From assembly GCF_900101855.1 (NCBI RefSeq), contig NZ_FMVC01000002.1:501599-565598 (forward strand): a stretch of DNA of 64,000 nucleotides, written 5' to 3'. The DNA is from Flavobacterium anhuiense (GTDB lineage: Bacteria; Bacteroidota; Bacteroidia; Flavobacteriales; Flavobacteriaceae). Under the pieces are notes generated by a model that saw only the letters and a program-made list of their open reading frames with translations, was not told where the DNA came from and made no database searches. The position numbers were made by a program, and so were the translations under genes. This document shows, piece after piece, positions 8,903 to 56,014 of the stretch (within the stretch, counting starts at the first letter, position 1; every line of letters begins with the position of its first letter).

Positions 8903-10234
8903 TTACAATTCATCTTCTAGCCTAAATCTAAATTTAAGCACCACACTATTTCGTTCAACCTCGATATTAATCCAAATATCATCTTCCGATTTTAAAAGAT
9001 TATTAATCTGTTGGAGAGTATATTTATACGGCTGTGTCTTATTAATACTGATAATAATGTCACCTTTAAGAAGTCCGCATTTTTCAGCTGCAGAATTCTT
9101 ACGCACGTTTACAATTTCATAAACAGGCTTTAGAGCAAATTTATATTTAAAATTATTGCTGTTCTTCTCTTTTTCCTGCAATTCATCCATCGAGGAAGCA
9201 ACTCGCACGGTTTCTAAATGCACTGTTTCCTGTACCCACTGAAGTCCATTGTGCTGAACCGTGATTCCACTTTTATTGTAGGTAAAAGGTTCTCCAAATT
9301 TGCTATTCTTTTTCAGGTAGAGTTTTTTCCCTTTATAATCCAAAACCAAAGTAAATCGTTTTAAAACTTCGCCACCAACAGATCCAATACGTCCTGGGAC
9401 CATCTTAACGTTCCGAATGGAGGCAGAATCAGGAAAAGAAACGATTGGTTTTTTAAAATCAAATTCGTCAATCGAAAATTTATCAATTTTAGCACGATGC
9501 CCTTCAATATCCCCGCTAAATCCTTTTCCTAAAAAATCTGGAAAATTTTTATTTGGGAGTTTGATTTTATCATTCTCAAAAACCCAGAAAGCATCACTAT
9601 TTCCAATATCAATTAGAAGCTTTGCCGGAATTTCTTCATTATTGACCGTTGCTGTTGTCATGATGTAGGGTTTTGATTTTTCTACTGTTATCGGAACCAT
9701 TCTAAACTTTTTATTTAGTTTTTCCTCAAACTTATTATTCTTCGCATGAACTATTATTTTCCTTTTCTGGTAATTAACTTCTACATAGTTATTTCGAAAG
9801 AATTTATGGCCGATAATTCCATTGACAGGAATTCCGATATGAGAAGACAAATTGAAGCTTTGGTCTAAAATAATAAAGACCATATGATCATTGGATTTCA
9901 GACCATGTGTTTCCAAAATATTCTTTGTCGATTTCAGACCTTCTATTTCTTCCTCGCTTCCTAAACCGCGGAGTTTAATTTTTTCCACATTATTAAAACT
10001 GACTTCCTGCTTTTCTTCCATACTAAACAGAATCGTTTCTTCGACACCAGAATCTAAAAGAAAATTAAGCTCAACTCCATTTACTTTTATCGGAATAAAA
10101 ACAAGATTATTTATCAATTTAAAAGGAATTGTGGCCTTTGTTGCATTGTTTTCCAATAAAAAATCGCCTTGTCCAAAAAGCAAAAAAGGTAAGAATAACC
10201 CAAAAAACAATACTATATATTTTTTCATTGACAA
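8903..10234 (-). CDS. retropepsin-like aspartyl protease with PDZ domain
   Basis: Exported protein of 443 residues with a signal peptide (about 1-22, ending LLFGQ). It has two retropepsin-like halves: the first has NFLLDSGVEETI, where the D-S-G is the catalytic triad, and the second has LLIDIGNSDAFW with a D-I-G. GIIGHKFFRN follows the first and GSVGGEVLKRF the second, as in Asp_protease_2 family proteins. The last 90 residues form a PDZ domain (VYEIVNVRKNSAAEKCGL, GDIIISINK). The likely role is periplasmic proteolysis; substrate unknown. The start could be the second Met at 10228. The gene stands alone, 150 bases from the T9SS cassette. Confidence 0.86.
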   Translation of the reverse strand: MSMKKYIVLFFGLFLPFLLFGQGDFLLENNATKATIPFKLINNLVFIPIKVNGVELNFLLDSGVEETILFSMEEKQEVSFNNVEKIKLRGLGSEEEIEGLKSTKNILETHGLKSNDHMVFIILDQSFNLSSHIGIPVNGIIGHKFFRNNYVEVNYQKRKIIVHAKNNKFEEKLNKKFRMVPITVEKSKPYIMTTATVNNEEIPAKLLIDIGNSDAFWVFENDKIKLPNKNFPDFLGKGFSGDIEGHRAKIDKFSIDEFDFKKPIVSFPDSASIRNVKMVPGRIGSVGGEVLKRFTLVLDYKGKKLYLKKNSKFGEPFTYNKSGITVQHNGLQWVQETVHLETVRVASSMDELQEKEKNSNNFKYKFALKPVYEIVNVRKNSAAEKCGLLKGDIIISINKTQPYKYTLQQINNLLKSEDDIWINIEVERNSVVLKFRFRLEDEL

Positions 10235-10321
10235 TATTTTATTATAAAATTAGTAAATATATTTATTATTGTTACATTTTTGCAAGTACCCGTATTGTTT
10301 ACGTTAAATTGGAAAAAAAAA

Positions 10322-10333
10322 TGCAAATTTGCA
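10322..10333. promoter_or_regulatory. 12-bp palindrome upstream of the aminotransferase
   Basis: TGCAAATTTGCA is a perfect palindrome 18 bases before the start codon. The right half resembles a -7 box (CAAATTTG against TAnnTTTG), so the site may overlap the promoter. No regulator is identified. Confidence 0.3.
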
Positions 10334-10351
10334 CTTCAATAATTTATACTC

Positions 10352-11548
10352 ATGCCGACAATTTCACACAAGGGAAGAAACATGCCCGAATCTCCGATAC
10401 GCAAGCTGGCTCCTTTTGCTGATTTAGCAAAGAAAAAAGGACACAAGGTGTATCACTTAAACATTGGTCAACCGGATATCAAGACACCGGAAGTGGCCAT
10501 CGAGGCGGTAAAAAATATTGATTTGAGTATTATAGAATACAGTCCGTCTGCCGGATATGAAAGCTATAGAAAAAAATTAGCTCATTTTTACCAGCGCCAA
10601 AATGTAAACGTTAACACAGAAGACATCATTGTAACTACTGGTGGTTCTGAAGCCTTACTTTTTGCACTGGCCACAATTACAGATCCTGGAGATGAAATCA
10701 TTATCCCAGAACCTTTTTATGCTAATTATCATGCGTTTGCTTCTTCTACAAGTGCAACTGTAGTGCCTCTTGTTTCTACTATTGAAACTGGTTTTGCTTT
10801 GCCAAGTATTGACGAAGTTGAAAAACTAATAACACCAAGAACAAAAGCCATTCTGATTTGCAACCCTGGAAATCCGACTGGATATTTATACTCTGAAGCC
10901 GAAATTAAACAATTGGCTCATTTAATTAAAAAACACGATTTATACTTAATCGCTGATGAAGTGTACCGTGAATTTTTATATGATGGAGATGATGTTCATT
11001 TTTCTGTAATGAATCTAGAAGATGTACAGCAAAATGTAATCATGGTTGATTCTGTTTCTAAACGCTACAGTATGTGCGGAGCAAGAATTGGCTGTCTGGT
11101 GACAAAAAACAAAGACGTCTTGGCAACCGTAATGAAGTTTGCTCAAGCGCGTTTAAGTCCGCCAACTATTGAGCAGATAGCTTGCGAAGCTGCTATAGAC
11201 ACTCCGCAGAGTTATTTTGATGAAGTAATTGGTGAATACAAAGAACGTCGCAATACCTTAATTGCCGAATTAAACAAGATTGAAGGTGTTGTGGTAACAA
11301 AACCAAAAGGCGCTTTTTATTGTATTGCCGAACTTCCGATAGAAGATTCAGACGATTTTGCACAATGGCTTCTTGAAAGTTATAATTTAAATGGCGAAAC
11401 AGTAATGATTGCTCCTGCAAAAGGTTTCTATTCAACTCCTGGAATGGGACTAAATCAGGTTCGTATTGCTTATGTGTTGAACAAAAAAGATTTGATTACT
11501 GCTGTAAATATCTTAAAGGAAGCTTTACTGGTTTACAACAACAGATAA
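10352..11548 (+). CDS. PLP-dependent aminotransferase, class I/II
   Basis: Fold-type I aminotransferase of 398 residues resembling aspartate aminotransferases. The substrate-binding segment is HLNIGQPDIKTP, followed by GGSEAL for phosphate binding, CNPGNPTGY (Asn binding the PLP ring), DEVYREF, and SVSKRYSMCGARIG with the Schiff-base lysine. The C-terminal RIAY supplies the carboxylate-binding Arg. The ATG at 10352 fits the family; a second in-frame ATG lies at 10382. A 12-bp palindrome TGCAAATTTGCA at 10322-10333, just upstream, could be an operator or part of the promoter. The amino acid substrate cannot be decided from sequence. A terminator follows. Confidence 0.92.
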   Translation: MPTISHKGRNMPESPIRKLAPFADLAKKKGHKVYHLNIGQPDIKTPEVAIEAVKNIDLSIIEYSPSAGYESYRKKLAHFYQRQNVNVNTEDIIVTTGGSEALLFALATITDPGDEIIIPEPFYANYHAFASSTSATVVPLVSTIETGFALPSIDEVEKLITPRTKAILICNPGNPTGYLYSEAEIKQLAHLIKKHDLYLIADEVYREFLYDGDDVHFSVMNLEDVQQNVIMVDSVSKRYSMCGARIGCLVTKNKDVLATVMKFAQARLSPPTIEQIACEAAIDTPQSYFDEVIGEYKERRNTLIAELNKIEGVVVTKPKGAFYCIAELPIEDSDDFAQWLLESYNLNGETVMIAPAKGFYSTPGMGLNQVRIAYVLNKKDLITAVNILKEALLVYNNR

Positions 11549-11570
11549 TCAATTCATTATAATCGATTTA

Positions 11571-11606
11571 AAAAGACAATAACGTTCTTCGTTGTTGTCT
11601 TTTTTG
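11571..11606 (+). terminator. terminator after the aminotransferase
   Basis: Stem aaaagacaataacg with cgttgttgtctttt (one G-T wobble), loop ttctt, then a T-run. It begins 22 bases after the stop codon. Confidence 0.85.
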
Positions 11607-11751
11607 TTTTTAATAACAATATTTCTCTTTAAAATTTAAATTATATCCAAAAACGAGTAATTAAATCCTAAAAACCATAGAAAAGGTTTCCCATTTATTA
11701 ATTATCTTTACCGCCTTAAAAAGATATACCACATTATAATAGTAGTTCTTA

Positions 11752-12423
11752 ATGATAAATAACGAAGAATTTTTAGACGAAATAGGTGACAGTCATTTCA
11801 GCAGTAATGCAAAAAACCCTCTAAGAGCGGATGCTTTTGACATCACTGATGAAGAAAAAATAGAAAAAATTAAAAAAGATGTCGAAAACATCCTGCAAAC
11901 TTTAGGAATGGATTTGACGGATGACAGCATTAAAGGAACTCCAAATCGAGTTGCAAAAATGTTTGTAAAAGAAATTTTTGGAGGCCTTAACCCTGCAAAA
12001 CAGCCAAAAGCTTCTACTTTTGACAATAATTATAAATATGGCGAGATGCTTGTAGAAAAAAACATCACGGTTTATTCTACTTGCGAACACCACTTACTGC
12101 CAATTATCGGGCGTGCTCACGTTGCTTACATCTCAAGCGGACGCGTTATTGGTTTATCAAAAATGAACCGTATCGTAGAGTATTATGCAAAAAGACCTCA
12201 AGTACAAGAGCGTCTAACTATGCAGATTGTTCAAGAGCTTCAAAAAGCTTTAGGAACAGAAGATGTAGCCTGCGTTATTGATGCTAAACACCTTTGCGTA
12301 AACTCACGCGGAATTAAAGATATCGAAAGCAGCACAGTAACTTCTGAGTTCGGAGGAAAATTCAAAGAGCCACAAACAAAAAGAGAATTTTTAGATTATA
12401 TTAAGCTAGACACTCAATTCTAA
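11752..12423 (+). CDS. folE: GTP cyclohydrolase I
   Basis: Converts GTP to 7,8-dihydroneopterin triphosphate, the first step of tetrahydrofolate and pterin synthesis. At 223 residues it is normal for the family. The zinc-ligand region is STCEHHLLPIIG, followed by GRVIGLSKMNRIVEYYAKRPQ and QERLT, then the second Cys in VACVIDAKHLCVNSRG. This is the zinc-dependent type IA. The acidic N-terminal 30 residues are not conserved in the catalytic core. A near-consensus -7 box (TATCTTTA) lies about 45 bases upstream. It is followed by the IVP gene, which appears to be an insertion between folE and cysS. Confidence 0.97.
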   Translation: MINNEEFLDEIGDSHFSSNAKNPLRADAFDITDEEKIEKIKKDVENILQTLGMDLTDDSIKGTPNRVAKMFVKEIFGGLNPAKQPKASTFDNNYKYGEMLVEKNITVYSTCEHHLLPIIGRAHVAYISSGRVIGLSKMNRIVEYYAKRPQVQERLTMQIVQELQKALGTEDVACVIDAKHLCVNSRGIKDIESSTVTSEFGGKFKEPQTKREFLDYIKLDTQF

Positions 12424-12425
12424 AA

Positions 12426-12460
12426 TGTTTATTGTTTTTAGTTTATAGTTTGTTGTTTTT
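12426..12460. repeat. left arm of inverted repeat enclosing the IVP gene
   Basis: On the complementary strand the bases read in 7-base units (aaaaaca, acaaact, ataaact, aaaaaca, ataaaca). Twenty-four of 27 aligned bases match the reverse complement of the right arm at 12864-12899. The arm ends exactly at the IVP start codon. Confidence 0.75.
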
Positions 12461-12850
12461 ATGGCCAAAATAGAAAAGTTTGAAGATTTAGAAATTTGGA
12501 GATTAGCTCGAGAAATCTGTCTTCAAATTGAATTTTTAATTCAAAATACAAACTTGAAAACAAACTATTCGTTAAAAGATCAAATTGATAGAAGTTCTGG
12601 TTCAATAATGGATAATATCGCAGAAGGTTTTGAAAGAAATGGCAATCGAGAATTTATTAATTTTTTAAGTATTGCAAAAGGTTCTGCTGGCGAAGTAAAA
12701 TCTCAATCCTATAGAGCCTTTGATAAAAAACTGATTAATCAGGAACAACATTTAAAACTGAATGAAAAGGTTGAACTTGTTAAAAACAAAATTGGGGCAA
12801 TGATGAACTATTTAAACAAATGTGAAATCAAAGGTCTAAAATTCAAATAA
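12461..12850 (+). CDS. four-helix-bundle protein of the IVP/S23 family
   Basis: Protein of 129 residues with the conserved pattern of the 23S rRNA intervening-sequence protein family: FEDLEIWRLAREIC at the N-terminus, LKDQIDRSSGSIMDNIAEGFER in the middle (written here in two parts of one helix) and FLSIAKGSAGEVKSQ. These proteins form four-helix bundles that assemble as pentamers. They occur inside intervening sequences of 23S rRNA and as stand-alone genes, and the related Avd protein is an accessory of diversity-generating retroelements. Function here is unknown. The gene sits between folE and cysS inside an inverted repeat made of heptamer arrays, like an insertion in a hairpin loop. Confidence 0.88.
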   Translation: MAKIEKFEDLEIWRLAREICLQIEFLIQNTNLKTNYSLKDQIDRSSGSIMDNIAEGFERNGNREFINFLSIAKGSAGEVKSQSYRAFDKKLINQEQHLKLNEKVELVKNKIGAMMNYLNKCEIKGLKFK

Positions 12851-12863
12851 ACAATTTCATCCC

Positions 12864-12899
12864 AAAACAATAAACCAAAAACAATAAACAACAAACATT
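12864..12899. repeat. right arm of inverted repeat enclosing the IVP gene
   Basis: Reads as exact 7-base units aaaacaa, taaacca, aaaacaa, taaacaa, caaacat. Complementary to the left arm at 12426-12460. It ends 7 bases before the cysS start codon, so it may form the cysS upstream region. Confidence 0.75.
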
Positions 12900-12906
12900 A
12901 AAAAAT

Positions 12907-14388
12907 ATGCCACTATATAGCAGTCAGCCTTTAAAAATATACAATTCGCTTTCTGGCGAAAAAGAAGATTTCAAACCAATCCATGAAGGAAACGTTGGAA
13001 TGTATGTTTGTGGACCTACCGTATATAGTAATGTTCACTTAGGAAACGTGAGAACTTTTATGTCTTTTGATGTAATTTTCAGATATTTTCTTCATTTGGA
13101 TTATAAAGTTCGTTATGTTCGAAATATTACCGACGTTGGACATATCGTAGACGATGTGGATGAAGGTGAAGATAAAATTGCTAAAAAAGCACGCTTAGAG
13201 CAATTGGAACCAATGGAAGTAGTACAGCGTTATACCGTAGATTTCCACAACATTCTAAAAGCTTTCAACTTTTTGCCTCCAAGCATCGAGCCTACAGCAA
13301 CAGGGCATATTATTGAGCAAATTGAAATTATTAAAAAAATTATCGATAAAGGCATCGCTTATGTGGCAAACGGATCGGTATATTTTGATGTTGTAAAATA
13401 TAACGAGACTAATAATTACGGTATATTAAGCGGTAGAAATATCGATGATATGCTGGCAAACACACGTGATCTTGACGGGCAATCTGACAAGAGAAATCCA
13501 CAAGATTTTGCGCTTTGGAAAAAAGCAGAGCCGGAACATATCATGAGATGGCCTTCACCTTGGAGTGATGGTTTCCCTGGATGGCACTTAGAGTGTACTG
13601 CCATGAGCACCAAATATCTTGGGAATCATTTTGACATTCACGGAGGCGGAATGGATTTAAAATTCCCTCACCACGAGTGTGAAATCGCTCAAAATGAAGC
13701 TTGCACAGGTCAGGCGCCAGTAAATTACTGGATGCATGCGAACATGCTTACTTTAAACGGAAAGAAAATGGCAAAATCGACTGGAAACAATATTCTTCCA
13801 GGCGAAATTCTTAGCGGAGACAACAACATCTTAAGCAAACCATTCTCTGCTTCTGTAACTCGTTTTTTCATGCTTCAAGCACATTACAGAAGCATCTTAG
13901 ATTTTTCTGACGATGCTATTGTTGCGGCCGAAAAAGGATATAAAAGATTGATGGAAGCACTAGATGCTTTACCAAATATTACTGCAGGAAATTCTAGTTC
14001 AATAGATTTTGCTGCTTGGAAACAGCTTTGCTACGATGCAATGAATGATGATTTCAACACGCCAATTTTAATTGCGCAGCTGTTTGAAGCCGTTCGCTAC
14101 ATCAATTTATTAAAAGATGGCAAAGAAACGATTTCTGCTGATGATTTAGCCGATTTCAAAAAAGCCGTAAATGCTTTTGTTTTTGACGTTTTAGGACTCA
14201 ATGATGACAAAGCTGCTGATGGCGATAGCGATAAACTGGAAGGTGTAGTAAACATGCTTATCAAAATGAGAAATCAGGCGAGAGCAGATAAAAACTTTGC
14301 GCTTTCTGACCAAATTCGCGATCAATTAATTGCTTTGGGAATTCAGCTTAAAGACGGAAAAGAAGGAACTACTTTTAGCATTCAATAA
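12907..14388 (+). CDS. cysS: cysteine--tRNA ligase
   Basis: Class Ia synthetase charging tRNA-Cys. At 493 residues it has normal length. The zinc and ATP site are seen in [20 protein letters not shown] (HIGH variant HLGN near residues 45-48, with the zinc Cys in YVCGP). [10 protein letters not shown] and [11 protein letters not shown] provide further zinc ligands, and KKMAKSTGN is the KMSKS loop. The DALR anticodon-binding region and a C-terminal helical tail follow. The start at 12907 is 7 bases after the heptamer repeat. Probably transcribed with yidD and lgt. Confidence 0.97.
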
Positions 14389-14390
14389 AA

Positions 14391-14454
14391 AGTATTCAAT
14401 ATTAGTTTTTAGTGTTTCATTCATTCTGAACACTAAAAACTGAGTATTGAACAC
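14391..14454. repeat. octamer-type hairpin between cysS and yidD
   Basis: Arm 14391-14416 pairs with arm 14429-14454 (one indel), separated by 12 bases. The second arm reads aacacta, aaaactga, gtattgaa with an 8-base spacing. It starts 2 bases after the cysS stop codon. There is no T-run, so it is not a typical terminator. Confidence 0.65.
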
Positions 14455-14477
14455 CAACTAAACGATACAAGAAAAAT

Positions 14478-14726
14478 ATGTTTTCAAAAATTCTGATATA
14501 TCCGTTTGTATTGTTAGTCCGTTTTTATCAGACTGCCATTTCACCGTTTACACCGGCTTCTTGCAGATTTGAGCCAACTTGTTCGACATATATGATTCAG
14601 GCATTGCAAATTCATGGATTGTTCTATGGCGGATTTTTAGGCGTCAAGCGCATTTTAAGCTGTCACCCTTGGGGAAGAAGTGGTTACGATCCTGTACCAG
14701 AAAAGAAATGCAACCACAAACATTAA
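14478..14726 (+). CDS. yidD: membrane protein insertion efficiency factor YidD
   Basis: Small membrane-associated protein of 82 residues that assists YidC-mediated membrane protein insertion. Family hallmarks: an N-terminal amphipathic/hydrophobic helix ([12 protein letters not shown]), then [19 protein letters not shown] with the conserved Cys pair, and [14 protein letters not shown] near the C-terminus. Elsewhere it often neighbours rnpA and yidC; here it lies between cysS and lgt, a plausible flavobacterial arrangement. Confidence 0.95.
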
Positions 14727-14790
14727 CTTTTTAGGAAACGGTACTTTACATTAAATATTTATTTTTACAGCTATATAAAAACATTTATAC

Positions 14791-15723
14791 ATGACACACG
14801 CCTTAAATTTAGTTTGGAATCCTTCTGAGGGAATCAACTTAGGATTTTTTATGATTCGCTATTACAGCTTAATGTTTGTAATTGCTTTTGGTTTAGGATG
14901 GTTCCTAATGAAAAAGATGTTCGAAAGAGAAAACGAATCGATTGAAAAACTAGATTCTCTATTTGTTTGGACAGTTTTAGCCACTTTAATAGGCGCTCGT
15001 TTAGGTCATGTTTTCTTTTACGATTGGGAATATTTCAGAAATCATTTGCTTGAAATTTTCTTGCCATTTAAATTTGAGCCTGAATTTCAATTTACAGGCT
15101 TCCAAGGATTAGCAAGTCATGGCGCAGCTATTGCCATTATTGTTGCGATGTATTACTACAGCAAAAAAATTCTAAAACGTCCATTGTTATGGATTTTAGA
15201 CCGAGTTGTAATTCCTGTTGCAAGCGGTGCTATTTTTGTACGTTTAGGGAATTTCTTTAATTCAGAAATTATTGGCCACGAAACTACTTCTGCATTCGGA
15301 ATCCGTTTTCTTCATGATAAATTCAGTAAAGCCGAAGCTGTACAAAAAACGGGAATAGCCGATCCAAAAGAAGCTTATAACGCAATAGCTTCAGATCCAA
15401 GATTTGCTAATTTGCTAGCAGAAGTTCCTTCAAGACATCCTACTCAGCTTTACGAAGCAATCTGTTACGTTTTTGTTTTTGCTATTTTATACTTTTTATA
15501 CTGGAAAACAAATGCAAGACTTAAATCTGGTCTATTATTCGGATTGTTTTTAGTTCTTTTATTTGTTGTGCGTTTCATCGTAGAGTTTGTAAAAGAAAGC
15601 CAAGGCGGTTTTGAGAGCGAATTAGGCTTATTTTCGACAGGACAATGGCTAAGCATACCATTTATCATTATTGGACTTTTCTTTGTTATTAGAGCACAAA
15701 GAAATCCTTTAGCTGACGCATAA
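14791..15723 (+). CDS. lgt: prolipoprotein diacylglyceryl transferase
   Basis: Transfers diacylglycerol from phosphatidylglycerol to the lipobox Cys of prolipoproteins, in the inner membrane. At 310 residues it has about seven membrane segments. Recognisable motifs are MIRYYSLMFVIAFGLG, GARLGHVFFYDW, FQGLASHGAAI (the conserved His of HGG/HGA), VRLGNFFNSEIIG and PTQLYEAICY. It matches the lipobox proteins in the window (at 2281 and 62622). A bidirectional terminator follows 16 bases after the stop codon. Confidence 0.96.
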   Translation: MTHALNLVWNPSEGINLGFFMIRYYSLMFVIAFGLGWFLMKKMFERENESIEKLDSLFVWTVLATLIGARLGHVFFYDWEYFRNHLLEIFLPFKFEPEFQFTGFQGLASHGAAIAIIVAMYYYSKKILKRPLLWILDRVVIPVASGAIFVRLGNFFNSEIIGHETTSAFGIRFLHDKFSKAEAVQKTGIADPKEAYNAIASDPRFANLLAEVPSRHPTQLYEAICYVFVFAILYFLYWKTNARLKSGLLFGLFLVLLFVVRFIVEFVKESQGGFESELGLFSTGQWLSIPFIIIGLFFVIRAQRNPLADA

Positions 15724-15738
15724 AACAATTTTAATTCA

Positions 15739-15780
15739 TAAAAAAATGCCCAATATTTAAAGTATTGGGCATTTTCTTTT
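15739..15780. terminator. bidirectional terminator between lgt and the PagL-like gene
   Basis: Stem aaaatgcccaata pairs with tattgggcatttt around a 7-base loop, flanked by A- and T-runs. It separates two converging genes and touches the stop codon of the minus-strand gene. Confidence 0.88.
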
Positions 15781-16395
15781 TATGGTTGATACGAAATACC
15801 AAATTCGATATTCTTAGTATTATATCCTGCATTACTGCTTCCTAAACCTGCATTAGAAACGTGCCGCAAACTCGGGCGAAGATCAAACTGCATTTTATTA
15901 TAGTCAACGGTAAAACCAAGCGCCAAAACATCTGCAAAAGCAAATCCTTTTGACATTCTCTCTGTTTCTGTATCTGTAATAAGAGGACCAACACTTCCTA
16001 ATATATATATCGAGCACATTTTTCCAATTGGCTTTCTAACCACAAATCCAATATTCAGAACATATTCCATCACTTCCTTCATTTTCATATATTCTATTCT
16101 TTTCTGCTCGAAATCTGGTTTCTCTGGCTTTACAAAATAATAATTAAGCAATTGATGTTTTCCAAAATTGATTTCGGGTTGAACTAAAACTTCGTACTGA
16201 AAATTTCTAGATTCTTTGATTTTATAATACAATTGCACTTTATAAAAATGATTCTCAAAAGTATAATCGGTATTACTAAATTCACCTCCGAATCCATAAC
16301 TTAAACCTATTCTATAATTTCTATTTTTCTCCTGTGCTTGAAGCTGAAAAGCAACAAAAAAAAGCAATTATAAAAAATCTTAGTTTTCGAATCAT
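15780..16395 (-). CDS. PagL-like lipid A deacylase (acyloxyacyl hydrolase), frameshifted in the signal peptide
   Basis: Outer-membrane beta-barrel of about 205 residues. The C-terminal LRHVSNAGLGSSNAGYN and the following NIEFGISY recall the active site of PagL-type 3-O-deacylases, where His, Ser and Glu are catalytic. The main reading frame begins only at a TTG at 16367, giving a truncated signal MLFFVAFQLQAQ. The natural ATG at 16393-16395 opens a good signal sequence (MIRKLRFFIIAFF) but loses frame in a run of eight T (16356-16363). Removing one T restores MIRKLRFFIIAFFVAFQLQAQ, a complete signal peptide. The family assignment rests on that C-terminal motif alone. Confidence 0.72.
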
Positions 16396-31098: not shown

Positions 31099-31117
31099 TT
31101 CTTTCTTTTTTTCTTTT

Positions 31118-31214
31118 AGAAAATAGAATATAGAATATAGAGAATAGACTTTCCAATCTTTGCTTTAATATCTATACTCTTTATTCTTTTCTCTATACTC
31201 TATTATCTTTTTTC
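31118..31214. repeat. imperfect hairpin repeat between TPR and PhzF genes
   Basis: Arm 31118-31150 (agaatatag words) is largely complementary to arm 31171-31214 (ctctatactc, tattatct words). The second arm ends at the TPR gene stop codon. Confidence 0.55.
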
Positions 31215-34200
31215 TTATCTATTAATCGACGAATTTGTTTTTGACTCTTCTGCTTTAATAGCGCTCAATTCTTTTTTCGCTTCTTCGACAACATCTGGAT
31301 AATCTGTAAAATTGTTGATTACGTTATCTAAAATATAAGTTGCCTGATAACTGTCTTTTAATCCGTAGAAGTTCTTCGCCATTAACACCAAACCTTTTGC
31401 TCCGTAATATTTATACGCCGAATAGCTTTTTGCCAATTTTTGAACAGCGGTGTTTGAAGCATCAAATTTCCCTTCTTTGGTTTTAAAATAGGCATCGTAA
31501 TACAACGCTTCTGCTGCTAATTCTCCTTTTGAAGTTGTCATTAATTTAGCGTAAGCTGTTTTCGCTTTATCTTCATTTCCTGTTTGAATCGCCGCTCTTG
31601 CTACAATGATTTGAGCGTCTGCTTTTACTCCTGCATCAGATTTTGGGTTTTCTAAAACTTTTTCAGCAGCAGTAACCGAATTGTCATAATCTTTTTTGTC
31701 ATAATAACATTTCATTAGGTTTGCCTGAGCAAAAGTCTTGTTCTGCGGATAATCTGCTTCGCTTTCTAAACGTTTTAAAACTGGAATTGCTTTATCACAA
31801 TCTTTTGCTTTTAAGTAAATCTGAGCCAATCTATTTAAAGCCTGTTCTGTAAATTCATTTCTAGGCTGATCGATTACATATTGATAATTTGATGTGGATT
31901 TTGTTTCAGATCCTTCAGCATAATACAATTGTGCTAGATAAAAATTAGCTTCCAAAGCGTGCAAACCAGCCGGAAATTTGCTTACATAACCTCCAAATCC
32001 TGTAATTGCAGCTTTGCTATTGTTTTGACTATATTGTTTAAAGGCAGCATCGTAAGTATCGTTATCTAATTCAGCATCTGAAACCTCAACAAAATCTAAA
32101 GTACGAACCCAAGTTGCATATTCGTCTACTTTTCCTGAATCAACATAGATTAATCTTGCTGTTGAAACCGCTTCTAAAGCTTCTGGTGTTTTCGGAAATT
32201 CAGCCGCTACTTTTTTGAATTTTGTTAAAGCCTGCTGATCGCGATCTGAATTATAATAAATCAATCCTTGTTTTAAAATTGCTTTTGAAGTAAAAGATCC
32301 GTTTTGGAATTCTGAAATCAATTGATCATACGTTTTCAAAGCTTGATCGTTTTTCTTTTCTGCAACGTAAGTATTTCCTAATTCGAACAAAGCATCATCT
32401 CTGTAAGACGATTTTTTGTACATCTGAAGGAAATTATTCAATTCATCCACTTTCTTCGCATTATTTGACATGAATCCGTAAGAAAGTGCTTTTTGAAATT
32501 GCGCATAATCAGCATCTACGCCTTTAGCCGCAATTGCTTTTGCGTATGCCTCGTTAGCAGCGCTGTATTTTGAAGTCACGAAACGACAATCTCCTAAACG
32601 CAAATAAGAATCGTTTAAACGAACTTTGTCTGAAGGCGAATTATCGATTTGAGCCTGAAAAGAATTCGCCGCCTGATCATATTCTTTCAGCTTAAAATAC
32701 GTGTAACCAATATTGTAATTGATATTTTTATATTCGTCTGTAGATTTTGCAGTAGCCATTCCAGCAAATTGCTTGTAAGTCAGTAAAGCATTTTGCATAT
32801 CATCATTCAGATATTCTGTTTCTGCTTTCCAGAAAGTGGCACGTGCTGTGAACTCAGGTGTTTTTTGTTCGCTGATCGCACTTTTGAACATTTTACCCGC
32901 TTCTTGGTAATTATTTTCGTTGTACAATTCCAATCCACGATAGAAAAGCACTTTTTGATACGCAGCTTTGTTTTCAGCAGATCTATTTTTTTCTAATAAA
33001 ACTAAAGCTTCTTTGTAATTTTTAGAAGAAATATAAGAATCAACCAAAAGTTTTTCTACTTCTGCACGGCTTGAATTGTTTGGATATTTTTTAAGGAAAT
33101 CCAATAAAATACCAGGAACGGCTTGATAAGCATTTCCGATATCGTAACTTAATTTAGCATAATTTAAAGCAGCATCTTCTTGAATCTGCGCGTTGAAATC
33201 CATTTCAGAAGCATTCTTAAAAGCATTTAAAGCTTCTTGCTTTTTACCTGTATTTAAATAGCTTAAACCTAAATGGTAATAAGCATTCTGAGCAACAAAA
33301 TCTTTTCCTTCAATAATTTTATTGAATTGAGAAATTGCTTTTTCGTAGTCTTTCTGCTCATAATACGCATATCCTAACTGATAAAAATCGGTATTATTCC
33401 ATTTTCCTTTTTTACCAGCATATTTTTCCAAATACGGAATTGCTTTTCCATATTGTTTTAGGTTGAAATAACTTTCTCCAATAATTTTATTCAGTTCCGA
33501 TTTTTCAATATCGTTAGATTTATTCATGGCTACCAATCCTAGATCAATCGCCTTTTGGAAATTTCCTAACTTGAAATTCATATCGGCCTGATAATACGAC
33601 AGCTTTTCTTTGTATTTTTCTTCTCCAGAAACCTCATCAAAATATTTTGTGGCCTCTTTATAATCGTCGCCCTCATACGCCATAAAACCTAAGTAATATT
33701 TGGCCTGTGAACCATATTCTTTAGAGTTTACAACTTTATTAAAATAATTGGTGGCTTCTTTTTTCTTTTTAGCATTAAAATAGCTGTAGCCTTTCATGAA
33801 GTTAAACTTATCCGATTCAGTTTTACTCATGTAACTTTCGTCTACCTTGTCAAACCACTGTAAAGCTTTTGGATAGTTCCCTTGTTCGAAAAAATATTGC
33901 GCAGCTTCAATATAAGCCTGATTTTGTTTAGTACTTGTTGGATAGTCGTTAACAAAATTTTCTACCAAAGCATCGGCATTTGCTTTATTGGTTCTAATCG
34001 CACAATTGGCAATGTAGTACGCACAATCTGACTGAACTTCTTCGTTAGTCGCATTGTATTTTACTTTTTCAAAAATCAATTGAGCCGAAGCATATTGTTT
34101 ATCGTTATATAAAGCCAGTGCTTTGTCAAAATCCTTTAATTCGTAAGTATAAATAGCCGATTTTTGTGCCGTAGCTATAGTCGAAGCAAGGATAATTTGG

Positions 34201-42176: not shown

Positions 42177-42177
42177 A

Positions 42178-43278
42178 TTAGTATTGATTTAAAATTTCAA
42201 TAATATAATCCACTTCAGATTCAGTCAAAACTGGACTTATAGGCAGACTTAAAGCCTCTTTATGAATCTTTTCAGTTATCGGAAATGACAAATTATTCCA
42301 TTGCGAAAAAGCTTTTTGCTTATGCGGAGGAATCGGATAATGAATTACAGTTTGAATATTATTTTGAGTTAAATATTCTTGAAGCTTTTCTCTGTTTTCT
42401 GTTCGAATAACAAACAAATGAAAAACATGATTATTGGAGAAATCCCAAAATGGCAACACTATTTTATGGTTTTTAATTTCTTTTAAATAGCGCTCTGCAA
42501 TGGCTCTTCGTTTTTCATTATCCGAATCTAAGTTTGGTAATTTCAGATTTAAAAATCCAGCCTGCAATTCGTCTAGTCTTGAATTTACTCCAACAAATTC
42601 ATTGTGATATTTTTTTTCCGAGCCATAATTTCGAAGCGAAAAAAGAACTTTTGCTAATGCTTCATCATTTGTTGTAATTGCTCCTCCGTCGCCGAGACAG
42701 CCCAGATTTTTTCCCGGGTAAAAACTGTAAGCGATTGCAGATTTTAGATTATAGATTTTAGATTTTAGATTTTTCTCTACGCCATGAGATTGCGCAGCAT
42801 CTTCTACAACAATTAAACTGTGTTTTTCTGCAAGCTCATTTATCTTATTCATTTCAGCCAATTGTCCGTATAAATGAACCGCTAAAATGGCTTTTGTCTT
42901 TGGAGTGATTTTTTCGGGAATTAATTCTGGATTTATATTGTAAGTTTCTAATCTTGGTTCAACCAAAACAGGAACTAAATCGGCTTGTAAAATGGCTAGA
43001 ATACTTGCAATATAAGTGTTGGCAGGAACAATAACCTCATCACCTTTTTTGAGTTTTCCGAGTTCGATATAGCCTTTAAAAATGAGAACCAAAGCATCAA
43101 AACCATTTCCGACTCCAATACAAAATTTTGATTGGCAATATTCAGCAAAAGCTTTTTCAAATGTTTCCACTTCTTTTCCTAAAATATACCAGCCGTTGTC
43201 TAAAACCGATTTCAATTTTTCTTGAAATGCAGTTTCATACGGTTTGTTTATTTTTTTTAGGTCTAAGAATGGTATCAC
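42178..43278 (-). CDS. DegT/DnrJ/EryC1/StrS sugar aminotransferase
   Basis: PLP aminotransferase of 366 residues for a nucleotide-linked keto sugar. Key features are VPANTYIASILAILQADL, DAAQSHG (Asp and Gln of the cofactor pocket), SFYPGKNLGCLGDGGAI with the catalytic Lys, and NSRLDELQAGFL. With the FdtA-like isomerase at 37016-37423 it probably makes a 3-amino-3,6-dideoxy sugar. Between SHG and the Lys motif the usual GS-rich sequence is replaced by residues KNLKSKIYNLKS, encoded by a heptamer array (42739-42774). The gene overlaps the GNAT gene upstream by 4 bases (ATGA). Confidence 0.92.
   Translation of the reverse strand: MIPFLDLKKINKPYETAFQEKLKSVLDNGWYILGKEVETFEKAFAEYCQSKFCIGVGNGFDALVLIFKGYIELGKLKKGDEVIVPANTYIASILAILQADLVPVLVEPRLETYNINPELIPEKITPKTKAILAVHLYGQLAEMNKINELAEKHSLIVVEDAAQSHGVEKNLKSKIYNLKSAIAYSFYPGKNLGCLGDGGAITTNDEALAKVLFSLRNYGSEKKYHNEFVGVNSRLDELQAGFLNLKLPNLDSDNEKRRAIAERYLKEIKNHKIVLPFWDFSNNHVFHLFVIRTENREKLQEYLTQNNIQTVIHYPIPPHKQKAFSQWNNLSFPITEKIHKEALSLPISPVLTESEVDYIIEILNQY
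42739..42774. repeat. heptamer array inside the aminotransferase coding sequence
   Basis: Plus strand reads agatttt, agattat, agatttt, agatttt, agatttt in exact 7-base register. The minus strand (aaaatct) is the same unit as the intergenic array at 55973-56014. It is in frame and open. Confidence 0.7.
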
Positions 43279-50560: not shown

Positions 50561-51574
50561 ATGGACGATATCAATACAACATCAAACGAAATCACAAATG
50601 AAAATGTGAATTTTGAAACAAGAATTAATTTAGGACCGCTTTTAGATCACGTAAATACGATCAAAAAAGAAATCGAAACCGTAATCGTTGGACAGCATAA
50701 AATGGTAGATCAGCTTTTGGTTGCTATTTTGTCAAACGGTCACGTACTTTTAGAAGGTGTTCCAGGAGTTGCCAAAACCATTACGGCTAAATTATTGGCT
50801 AAAACCTTAAATATTGGTTTCAGCAGAATCCAATTTACTCCCGATTTAATGCCTTCAGATATTTTAGGAACTTCTATTTTCAATCTGAAAAACTCAGAAT
50901 TTGAATTCAAAAAAGGGCCAATTTTTTCTAATCTGATTTTAATTGATGAAATCAACCGTGCTCCAGCAAAAACACAAGCTGCCCTTTTTGAAGTAATGGA
51001 AGAACGCCAAATTACAATTGATGGTTCTGCTTATCAATTGGAGGCTCCGTTTTTGGTAATTGCAACTCAGAATCCTGTAGAACAAGAAGGAACTTATCGT
51101 TTGCCAGAAGCGCAATTAGATCGTTTTCTTTTTAAAATTACAATTGATTACCCAAAACTGAACGAAGAAATTTTAATTATACAAAGGGAACATTCTTTAC
51201 AAGATCACGGAAAACTGGATGCTATTAAAACGATTCTTTCTGCTGAGGAAATCAAAGAATATCAAGGTCTGGTAAAACAAATTAGAGTAGAACAAAACTT
51301 GTTGGAATACATTGCTCGAATTGTAGTAAATACACGCGAAAATGCATTTTTATATTTAGGCGCTTCGCCTCGTGCTTCTATCGCGATTTTGAACGCCGCA
51401 AAAGGTTTTGCTGCAATCCGAGGACGTGATTTTGTAACGCCAGAAGATATTAAAGAAGCTGCAATTCCAGTTTTACAGCACCGTGTAATTGTTGCTCCAG
51501 AACGCGAAATGGAAGGTATTTCAAGTCCAGAAATCATCAAACAGATTATTGAAACAGTCGAAATTCCGAGATAA
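50561..51574 (+). CDS. MoxR family AAA+ ATPase
   Basis: AAA+ ATPase of 337 residues. Walker A is GVPGVAKT, followed by LMPSDILGTSIF, Walker B LILIDEINRAPAKTQAALFEVMEE, sensor I ATQNPVEQEG, and the Arg-finger RLPEAQLDRFLFKI. The C-terminal AAA_lid_2 is DFVTPEDIKEAAIPVLQHRV. MoxR ATPases act as chaperones that assemble or activate complexes, here probably those of the DUF58, DUF4129 and DUF4350 proteins encoded beside it. The typical partner with a VWA domain is replaced by DUF58. Confidence 0.94.
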   Translation: MDDINTTSNEITNENVNFETRINLGPLLDHVNTIKKEIETVIVGQHKMVDQLLVAILSNGHVLLEGVPGVAKTITAKLLAKTLNIGFSRIQFTPDLMPSDILGTSIFNLKNSEFEFKKGPIFSNLILIDEINRAPAKTQAALFEVMEERQITIDGSAYQLEAPFLVIATQNPVEQEGTYRLPEAQLDRFLFKITIDYPKLNEEILIIQREHSLQDHGKLDAIKTILSAEEIKEYQGLVKQIRVEQNLLEYIARIVVNTRENAFLYLGASPRASIAILNAAKGFAAIRGRDFVTPEDIKEAAIPVLQHRVIVAPEREMEGISSPEIIKQIIETVEIPR

Positions 51575-51577
51575 TTA

Positions 51578-51634
51578 TTAATGGTGAATTGTAAATGGTG
51601 AATTGTTAATGGTTAATGGTTAATGGTTAATGGT
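51578..51634. repeat. heptamer array (ttaatgg)
   Basis: Tandem units in 7-base register: ttaatgg, tgaattg, taaatgg, tgaattg, then four ttaatgg. Sits directly after the MoxR stop codon inside the operon. Confidence 0.75.
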
Positions 51635-51646
51635 GGAAAACGTAAA

Positions 51647-51671
51647 AGGCTTCGACTTCGCTCAGCCTGAC
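51647..51671. repeat. single copy of the 'tgtcaggctgag' repeat family
   Basis: Reverse complement of this stretch differs at 3 of 25 positions from the stretch at 55934-55958. Core words ggcttcg and tcagcctgaca. Related to the inverted repeat at 26982-27083. Confidence 0.65.
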
Positions 51672-51682
51672 AAAAAAGAACA

Positions 51683-51710
51683 AAACCTGAAACTTGAAAC
51701 TTGAAACAAT
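51683..51710. repeat. heptamer array (aacttga)
   Basis: Units aacctga, aacttga, aacttga, aacaata in exact register, just before the start of the next gene (51725). Confidence 0.65.
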
Positions 51711-51724
51711 AAAAACAAAAAAAA

Positions 51725-55869: not shown

Positions 55870-55933
55870 TTAAAAGTCTTCAACTTTTAATTTTTAATCT
55901 TTAATTTTTAATCAAAGAAAATGACTGCTTCAA

Positions 55934-55958
55934 TGTCAGGCTGAGACGAGTCGAAGCC
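55934..55958. repeat. second single copy of the 'tgtcaggctgag' repeat family
   Basis: Matches the reverse complement of 51647-51671 at 22 of 25 bases; the two copies are in opposite orientation. Confidence 0.65.
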
Positions 55959-55972
55959 TTATTCCTACATGG

Positions 55973-56014
55973 AAAATCTAAAATCTGCACTCTAAAATCA
56001 ACAATCTAAAATCT
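55973..56014. repeat. heptamer array (aaaatct)
   Basis: Units aaaatct, aaaatct, gcactct, aaaatca, acaatct, aaaatct in exact 7-base register, about 50 bases before the rsh start. The same heptamer is found in the coding sequence of the DegT gene at 42739-42774. Confidence 0.75.

Follow-up and report, generated by a model that had tools for sequence, protein, structure and literature searches.

The stretch of Flavobacterium anhuiense DNA analysed here, referred to as the window, spans 64,000 nucleotides (nt) and contains a short gene of the IVP (S23) family that is enclosed by two inverted arrays of seven-nucleotide repeats, designated the upstream and downstream arms. The gene, its arms and the adjacent open reading frames (ORFs) are arranged as follows:

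11752..12423, + strand: folE-like gene (ORF call)
12426..12461, + strand: upstream arm, a tandem 7-nt array whose inverted partner was found downstream
12461..12850, + strand: IVP/S23/four-helix-bundle gene, 129 amino acids (aa) (PF05635, TIGR02436)
12864..12899, + strand: downstream arm, five AAAC cores at 7-nt spacing, the reverse complement of the upstream unit type
12907..14388, + strand: cysS-like gene (ORF call)

The gene at 12461-12850 matched PF05635 (E 2e-30, 105.6 bits; curated cut-off 33.8) and TIGR02436 (E 1.7e-28, 99 bits; curated cut-off 24). It was the sole ORF of at least 60 aa between the arms, no transposase was encoded there, and the whole element, gene and both arms, measured about 475 bp. 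A preliminary description of the locus had noted that the gene is bounded by an inverted repeat built of exact 7-base units. The inverted repeat was confirmed, with an ungapped pair (12426-12451 and 12865-12890) that is 92% complementary over 26 nt and an extended pair (12417-12459 and 12864-12906) that is 79% complementary over 43 nt. The spacing was likewise exactly 7 nt, with five GTTT cores at 12427, 12434, 12441, 12448 and 12455 and five AAAC cores at 12865, 12872, 12879, 12886 and 12893, but the units were not exact copies: the upstream arm reads GTTTATT GTTTTTA GTTTATA GTTTGTT GTTTTTA (12427-12461), in which a four-base core is constant and the remaining three bases vary. This arm and the IVP start codon share one base, the A at 12461, leaving an arm-to-gene gap of 0. 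The inverted flank score of the IVP gene (29) was the highest among 49 window ORFs (next 27, median 15), and its p value of 0.005 (locus L287) was the minimum reachable with 199 single-base shuffles. The predicted RNA fold of the element has the arms paired, at -97.1 kcal/mol (z -3.76, with 0 of 100 shuffles as good).

Both neighbours, which we take from their translations to be folE-like and cysS-like, were called as ORFs on the strand of the IVP gene, in agreement with the placement first described. The upstream arm starts no more than 3 nt past the folE-like stop codon, and 7 bases separate the downstream arm from the cysS-like start. The element thus occupies the folE-cysS spacer and lies outside any 23S rRNA gene; no Rfam match was found in the window at the gathering score.

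The same arrangement was found around other members of the family. PF05635 matched 10 places in the genome of the window (labelled G000), one of them with an internal stop codon, and all 10 genes sit between genes of their own direction. Inverted flanks were significant for 9 of the 10 (p 0.005-0.015), with arm sequences that vary from gene to gene (GTTTATT, AAAGTGACA, CTTAGATTTTTAGAC, GAAAGAAGCAA, CAGTCGCAGTTTT and others). Single-base shuffles served for this set and for the other-phyla and plasmid sets described below, and dinucleotide shuffles for the genus, phylum and site counts. Repeated identical proteins and loci without a full flank were dropped before counting. In Flavobacterium, 60 of 61 genomes had a match, and the best-scoring matches (100 hits in 95 loci) yielded 93 unique loci, of which 61 reached the lowest attainable p (1/61) and 71 reached p<=0.05. 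Among 199 co-directional control genes of G000, which probably include the IVP gene of the window itself, the corresponding numbers were 4 and 9. Across the phylum, the family was matched in 157 of 198 sampled genomes, often in several copies; 72 hits in 68 loci gave 68 or 69 entries after filtering, and of 69 genes, 33 were at p 1/61 and 43 at p<=0.05. When loci with related neighbours were merged, 177 unique genes fell into 54 sites, each weighted once. Inverted flanks at p<=0.05 were present in 129/177 unique loci and 40.1/54 sites (27.7/54 sites at p<=0.01), and the inverted match was the better one in 140/177 loci, with a tie in 8. The preliminary description had raised two ways in which its reading could fail, namely similarity no greater than local AT-rich composition would give and random flanks in relatives. 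The arms far exceeded both shuffles and control genes, and the flanks of relatives were non-random in the genus, phylum and subfamily tests. The observation made in the window is real and general.

The flanking arrays share further properties. Of 108 site-weighted IVP flanks, 74.0 had a best period of 7 and 17.7 one of 8, whereas the best periods of control flanks were spread over all values (7 or 8 in 146/398). Where both arms held an array, unit length was equal in the two arms in 40.1 of 41.6 site-weighted cases, and arms most often contained four to five units. IVP genes lay in sense orientation between two co-directional genes in 88/93 Flavobacterium loci, 51/68 loci of the phylum set and 36.8/54 sites; for comparison, 275/380 adjacent gene pairs were on one strand, direction disregarded. 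A loose periodicity score, passed by 94.1/108 arms (8.5 in dinucleotide shuffles), was dropped because it also passed 155/398 control flanks and 17/22 AT-rich empty spacers. It was therefore too unspecific, and the best-period counts and inverted-match tests were relied on instead. The idea that unit length (7 or 8) tracks the protein across sites was likewise rejected: nearest neighbours agreed in 108/122 cases against a permuted mean of 64.7, but the filter had let related sites through, and the signal disappeared once every site contributed a single IVP. The subfamily comparison of arms described below is independent of this idea.

Inverted flanks also accompany IVP genes in other phyla and on plasmids. 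A scan of named genomes gave 90 hits in 80 loci and 83 usable genes, 2 of the 11 loci labelled as other phyla being lost. Of the 74 genes whose records carried no other-phylum label (by title almost entirely Bacteroidota), 58 were at p<=0.05, as were all 9 usable genes from Verrucomicrobia, Planctomycetes (Pirellula), Nitrospirae, Desulfosarcina, Ignavibacteriae and Balneolaceae/Fodinibius records. No IVP match was found in phages at E 1e-3. IVP genes were present in 15 plasmid records, and 5 of the 8 examined had significant inverted flanks (4 of 7 cyanobacterial plasmids and 1 from Riemerella); the rest comprised one with long direct-orientation arrays and two that were not significant. Cyanobacterial plasmid units included GGGAAAA and GGGAACA. 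On the Pseudanabaena plasmid pPg_01 (L433), the IVP gene has cas6 and cas4 as its neighbours, and the long heptamer arrays on either side of it are direct and not inverted.

The window protein was searched in 299 Flavobacterium genomes. Its subfamily comprised 20 loci at 71% identity or more, including the window's own (L001, L293-L310 and L315); a further partial match in G343 (76% over 75 residues) lies outside these 20. The loci occupy four sites: the folE-cysS spacer (9), the position before an ABC-F gene that is presumably EttA-like (6), before a presumed holA-like gene (4), and before a gene we take to be YciO/Sua5-like (1). At the holA-like site, a simple ORF caller placed the closest upstream ORF on the opposite strand in three loci and gave none in the fourth. 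Both arms matched those of the window in 8/8 other folE-cysS loci and in 11/11 loci at the three other sites. Elsewhere, window-type arms were found at 3/176 other IVP loci, 0/83 named loci and 0/10 relatives at 55-60% identity, by an arm-match score limit chosen after the locus comparison had been inspected. By eye, the 55-60% relatives carry GGGTTNC or GTTTAAA units. The arms thus accompany the gene, moving with it or at least sharing its inheritance.

The comparison of the folE-cysS interval suggested in the preliminary description was run in 30 of the 59 genomes with a cysS match. Three carried an IVP gene, and two different IVPs were represented among them: besides G000, these were G045, whose IVP is 88% identical and has the repeat type of the window, and G051, whose IVP is 35% identical and has another repeat type. 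In the other 27 the spacer measured 50-208 nt, which leaves no room for the gene. At the EttA-like site, represented by 30 loci taken from 61 genomes, one (G050) carried the window-type gene and 22 were gene-free, with spacers of 28-110 nt. One further spacer of 564 nt had no match to the window IVP, and six loci lacked the usual upstream gene; G000 itself is empty at this site. Window-like arms in both orientations (score >=14) were found in 0/22 EttA-like and 0/27 folE-cysS gene-free spacers. A single scar-like arm match (17-18) was present in 4/22 EttA-like gene-free spacers (L410, L412, L417 and L431), and arrays of other types were present in some folE-cysS spacers (L011, L015, L025 and L029). 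Judged by eye, filled and empty spacers look too diverged for a check of target site duplication. The mobility suggested for the element has thus gained indirect evidence, in that one subfamily with one repeat type occupies four sites and that sites lacking both gene and arms exist, but no movement event was observed.

Other small elements were noted in these spacers. In G051 the folE-cysS spacer holds the 35% identical IVP gene with GTTTAAT-type arms (L014 931-1510), and in G053 (L015) it holds a solitary GTTTAAT-type array, like a scar of the G051-type element. The Flavo-1 RNA (RF01705) was found in the same spacer in 12 of 24 relatives scanned (e.g., L006 1400-1475 and L009 1946-2021). The folE-cysS spacer seems to be a place where different small elements replace one another. 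At another site, which we take to be ndpA-like, two loci without an IVP gene (L216 and L220) show by eye a short hairpin of array-like units where relatives carry an IVP element.

The ratio of nonsynonymous to synonymous substitution rates (dN/dS) of the window gene was 0.01-0.24 against 14 relatives, most dS values being >1 and near saturation. Judged from these ratios, the IVP protein is under purifying selection. The arms were compared with four-fold degenerate sites in L293-L297; in the folE-cysS loci L295-L297 the arms were 0.80-0.89 identical and four-fold sites 0.34-0.46, although the gapped alignment of arms favours the arms. In G084 the IVP protein is identical and the downstream arm is 14 nt, exactly two units, longer, a difference that shows the way in which arms change. 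Related IVPs at the ndpA-like site were used to compare arms within and between loci (32 rows, including L209 twice and a truncated L056). The mean score of a locus's own arm pair was 19.8, against 15.2 for mismatched pairs, and 0 of 20,000 permutations reached the own-arm mean. The advantage was clearest at 60-70% IVP identity (20.5 vs 13.9) and nil at >90%. The order of units was not collinear between arms: own order beat permuted units at 19/40 sites (mean gain 0.45, Wilcoxon p 0.30). The arms consequently share a unit and do not form an ordered palindrome, and pairing alone is therefore not what is conserved. A shared unit without order fits a protein that reads units better than selection for pairing alone, although in the predicted fold of the RNA the arms are paired.

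We know of no function described for the S23/IVP family. The AlphaFold2 model of the window protein was a confident four-helix bundle (mean predicted local distance difference test score, pLDDT, 96.7). Its best PDB matches by Foldseek were 2GSC and 2RLD, with five chains per entry (TM-score 0.78-0.93 for 2GSC). Weaker matches were the Avd protein of diversity-generating retroelements (DGRs; 4DWL) and a DGR ribonucleoprotein (8UB7/8UBE), at E 0.05-0.4 and 8-9% sequence identity. In an excerpt of PMC10053308, PF05635 is said to resemble Avd, and the reference list gives the 2GSC paper as describing an assembly of five four-helix bundles. By analogy with these relatives, the presence of four to five units in an arm and five subunits in the protein hints that one unit may be matched to each subunit.

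Arrays were also present without a gene. In 464 kb of G000, 33 merged 7/8-nt arrays lie away from IVP genes; among 35 arrays, the two arms of the window included, 7 had an inverted partner beyond their own null. These gene-less arrays are read as scars or derivatives of IVP elements. When solitary G000 arrays were compared with IVP sets of other genera or phyla, 1 of 60 sets was as good as the genome's own. Array counts were 7 in 400 kb for five IVP-rich genomes (9-15 IVPs), 1 in 400 kb for five IVP-poor ones (0-1 IVPs) and 31 in 464 kb of G000. The association of IVP-rich genomes with more arrays is suggestive only, since two of the rich genomes contained no array and the comparison is uncorrected for relatedness and GC content.

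Several individual arrays were observed in the genome of the window. At window 31114-31150 and 31171-31224, two heptamer arrays of the AGAATAT type form an inverted pair around a short, gene-free loop and resemble an empty element. Heptamer arrays flank a sequence like the repetitive extragenic palindromic (REP) type, GGCTTCGACTTCGCTCAGCCTGACA, at window 51570-51715; arrays also flank a similar sequence at 55877-56014, which lies on the opposite strand. The two arrays at each place differ in unit. An AGATTTT array (window 42732-42776) lies inside a minus-strand ORF (42177-42852) and has the repeat type of the arms of the G000 IVP gene at L292. The window element's own repeat type (AAACAATAAACC) occurs at L240 14771-14819 (G000, C5), away from the ten G000 IVP genes, possibly as a scar.

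Together, these results led us to treat the gene and its two arms as one small element and one inherited unit, a conclusion that we regard as highly probable. That such elements disperse to new sites is likely. Binding of the IVP protein to its own arms, proposed by analogy, is slightly favoured, and a similarly slight preference is given to RNA rather than DNA as its main substrate. The best overall explanation, which we consider reasonably likely, is that gene and arms would form a dispersing unit related to 23S intervening sequences, with the arms read by the IVP protein. The element would be inserted in sense orientation in the spacer of two co-directional genes, and its arms would serve as recognition sites of the encoded protein. 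In a ring of IVP subunits, each subunit would contact one unit of one strand; such a ring appears likeliest because the solved relatives have five chains and the arms have mostly four to five units. The TRAP protein has this layout, each subunit of the ring contacting one unit. At the transcript level, the two arms can moreover base-pair, which would leave the gene in the loop in the manner of 23S intervening sequences. Binding of arm RNA, or of the matching DNA ends, might then protect, process or disperse the element; where the element was lost, a solitary array would remain as a scar.

A number of observations speak against this explanation. Neither a transposase nor a target duplication nor a fresh insertion was found, and the patchy distribution could reflect loss of old copies. 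The folE-cysS IVP diverges about as much as FolE (95% and 95% between G000 and G353), as vertical inheritance would give, and 4 of the 20 subfamily loci contain internal stop codons. One IVP gene of G000 (L291) lacks significant arms (p 0.25), about a quarter of sites miss p<=0.05, the direct orientation matches better in 29/177 loci, and unit counts range from 2 to >20. The loci counted were the best family matches and not a random sample. At the ndpA-like site, a gene's own downstream arm was the best match in 4/32 rows only. When 45 sites were each represented in a tree by a single IVP, the 7/8 label was unclustered, with 8 changes against 8.4 in shuffles. An assignment of solitary arrays to the IVPs of their own genome was tried and rejected, as the mean score of 17.2 compared with 16.3 for other Flavobacterium sets, 11 of 60 of which were as good.

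Two other explanations merit consideration, although we hold both to be less probable. The arms may be kept for pairing as an RNA hairpin of the 23S kind, from which RNase III excises the gene out of the operon mRNA, the protein being a passenger or accessory. The predicted fold closed by the arms, the sense placement in nearly all Flavobacterium loci, an arm pair that by eye is nearly perfect over about 38 nt (L003/L048), and the 13 of 107 single loci in which own unit order was favoured at p<=0.05 are all consistent with such a hairpin, and there is a precedent in the Coxiella intervening sequence of 428-444 nt: according to the excerpted text of PMC4990558, its 28-bp stem closes a loop that contains the S23 ORF, and RNase III cleaves it in vitro. 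Selected pairing would, however, demand ordered units, which were not observed across sites, and each arm resembles an independent run of the same unit; we therefore consider this explanation possible but doubtful. Somewhat less probable still is that the gene belongs to the host and is inherited vertically, its repeats serving autoregulation, with no mobility and with patchiness due to gene loss. This reading would account for the low dN/dS, for an ndpA-like site that is mostly occupied (25 of 30 genomes flagged, plus L208, the 30 being drawn from 145 matching genomes) and for scar-like solo arms (L015, L410 and L412), but it is at odds with four sites for one subfamily, with unrelated IVPs in the folE-cysS spacer of different species, and with the short gene-free spacer in most EttA-like loci.

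The arrays might instead be ordinary intergenic microsatellites into which IVP genes insert. The 33 arrays away from IVP genes and the many arrays without a partner agree with this idea; yet insertion into an array predicts arms in direct orientation, whereas inverted arms prevailed, gene-free spacers lacked paired window-type arms, and the repeat type follows the IVP subfamily, which makes it very unlikely. A role of the repeats as G-quadruplex elements, as proposed for the GGGAATC repeats of Xanthomonas and Nostoc, is extremely unlikely and not applicable to the window element, as its GTTTATT units and most of the units listed have no runs of G. The explanation of a dispersing unit whose arms are read by its own protein is thus the one we favour.

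The arrangement of gene and arms is wider than the window alone and recurs around many relatives in other bacteria, which suggests an element that comes and goes. The arms provide a candidate nucleic-acid partner and with it a concrete test of the function of the IVP family. They also link two unexplained things, this protein family and the over-representation of heptamers in bacteria, and if gene and arms do move, they would constitute a very small protein-coding mobile element without a recognised recombinase. A bolder proposal, which we put forward tentatively and consider doubtful, is that IVP elements are widespread minimal mobile elements, each made of a pentameric protein of 120 residues and two arrays of about five 7/8-nt units, with an element-specific repeat code read by its own pentamer at one unit per subunit. 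Arms, scars and derivatives would then explain the heptamer excess in Xanthomonas, Nostoc, Beggiatoaceae and Bacteroidetes, and the 23S intervening sequences would represent those copies whose insertion site was an rRNA gene.

Heptamer repeats have been described before. According to PMC4679880, TAACTGA repeats of Beggiatoaceae, Cyanobacteria and Bacteroidetes are intergenic 7-nt direct repeats, often near start codons; they resemble the IVP arms as intergenic 7-nt repeats, but that work follows one repeat sequence. Its main text lacks the terms S23, helix bundle and intervening sequence. In excerpts of PMC4692102, the GGGAATC and GGGGA(C/T)T heptamers of Xanthomonas and Nostoc occur mostly as four units, inverted pairs are noted, and the repeats are read as G-quadruplexes; their placement relative to ORFs is similar to that of the IVP arms. 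The same excerpts report that these heptamers are generally not found with mobile elements, and that many bacterial genomes show an over-representation of heptamers among their repeats, which had received no detailed study; the terms S23 and 'four helix' are absent from the text. Judged from titles and abstract openings, none of the open-licence papers among the matches listed connects the IVP family with heptamer arrays.

In REP-RAYT systems (REP with its associated tyrosine transposase), inverted copies of a repeat likewise flank a gene, and further copies of this repeat are scattered through the genome. The flanking inverted repeats are alike; however, the window element encodes an IVP domain only and no Y1/HUH transposase domain. 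The Avd protein of DGRs (4DWL; 8UB7 and 8UBE) has a fold in common with the window protein by Foldseek, at weak E-values. Unlike a DGR, the locus had no reverse transcriptase among the ORFs at 10000-16000, as judged from their translations, and the immediate neighbours are folE and cysS. The closest counterpart is the 23S rRNA intervening sequence of Coxiella and Leptospira, a likeness already noted in the preliminary description and upheld by the anatomy of the element: a homologous protein, an ORF in the loop between terminal inverted repeats, a similar size, a predicted RNA fold closed by the arms, and a mobility that is suspected but unproven. In contrast to those sequences, the IVP elements described here lie in spacers of protein-coding genes rather than in rRNA, their arms are 7/8-nt arrays whose unit differs from element to element, and several unrelated copies occur per genome.
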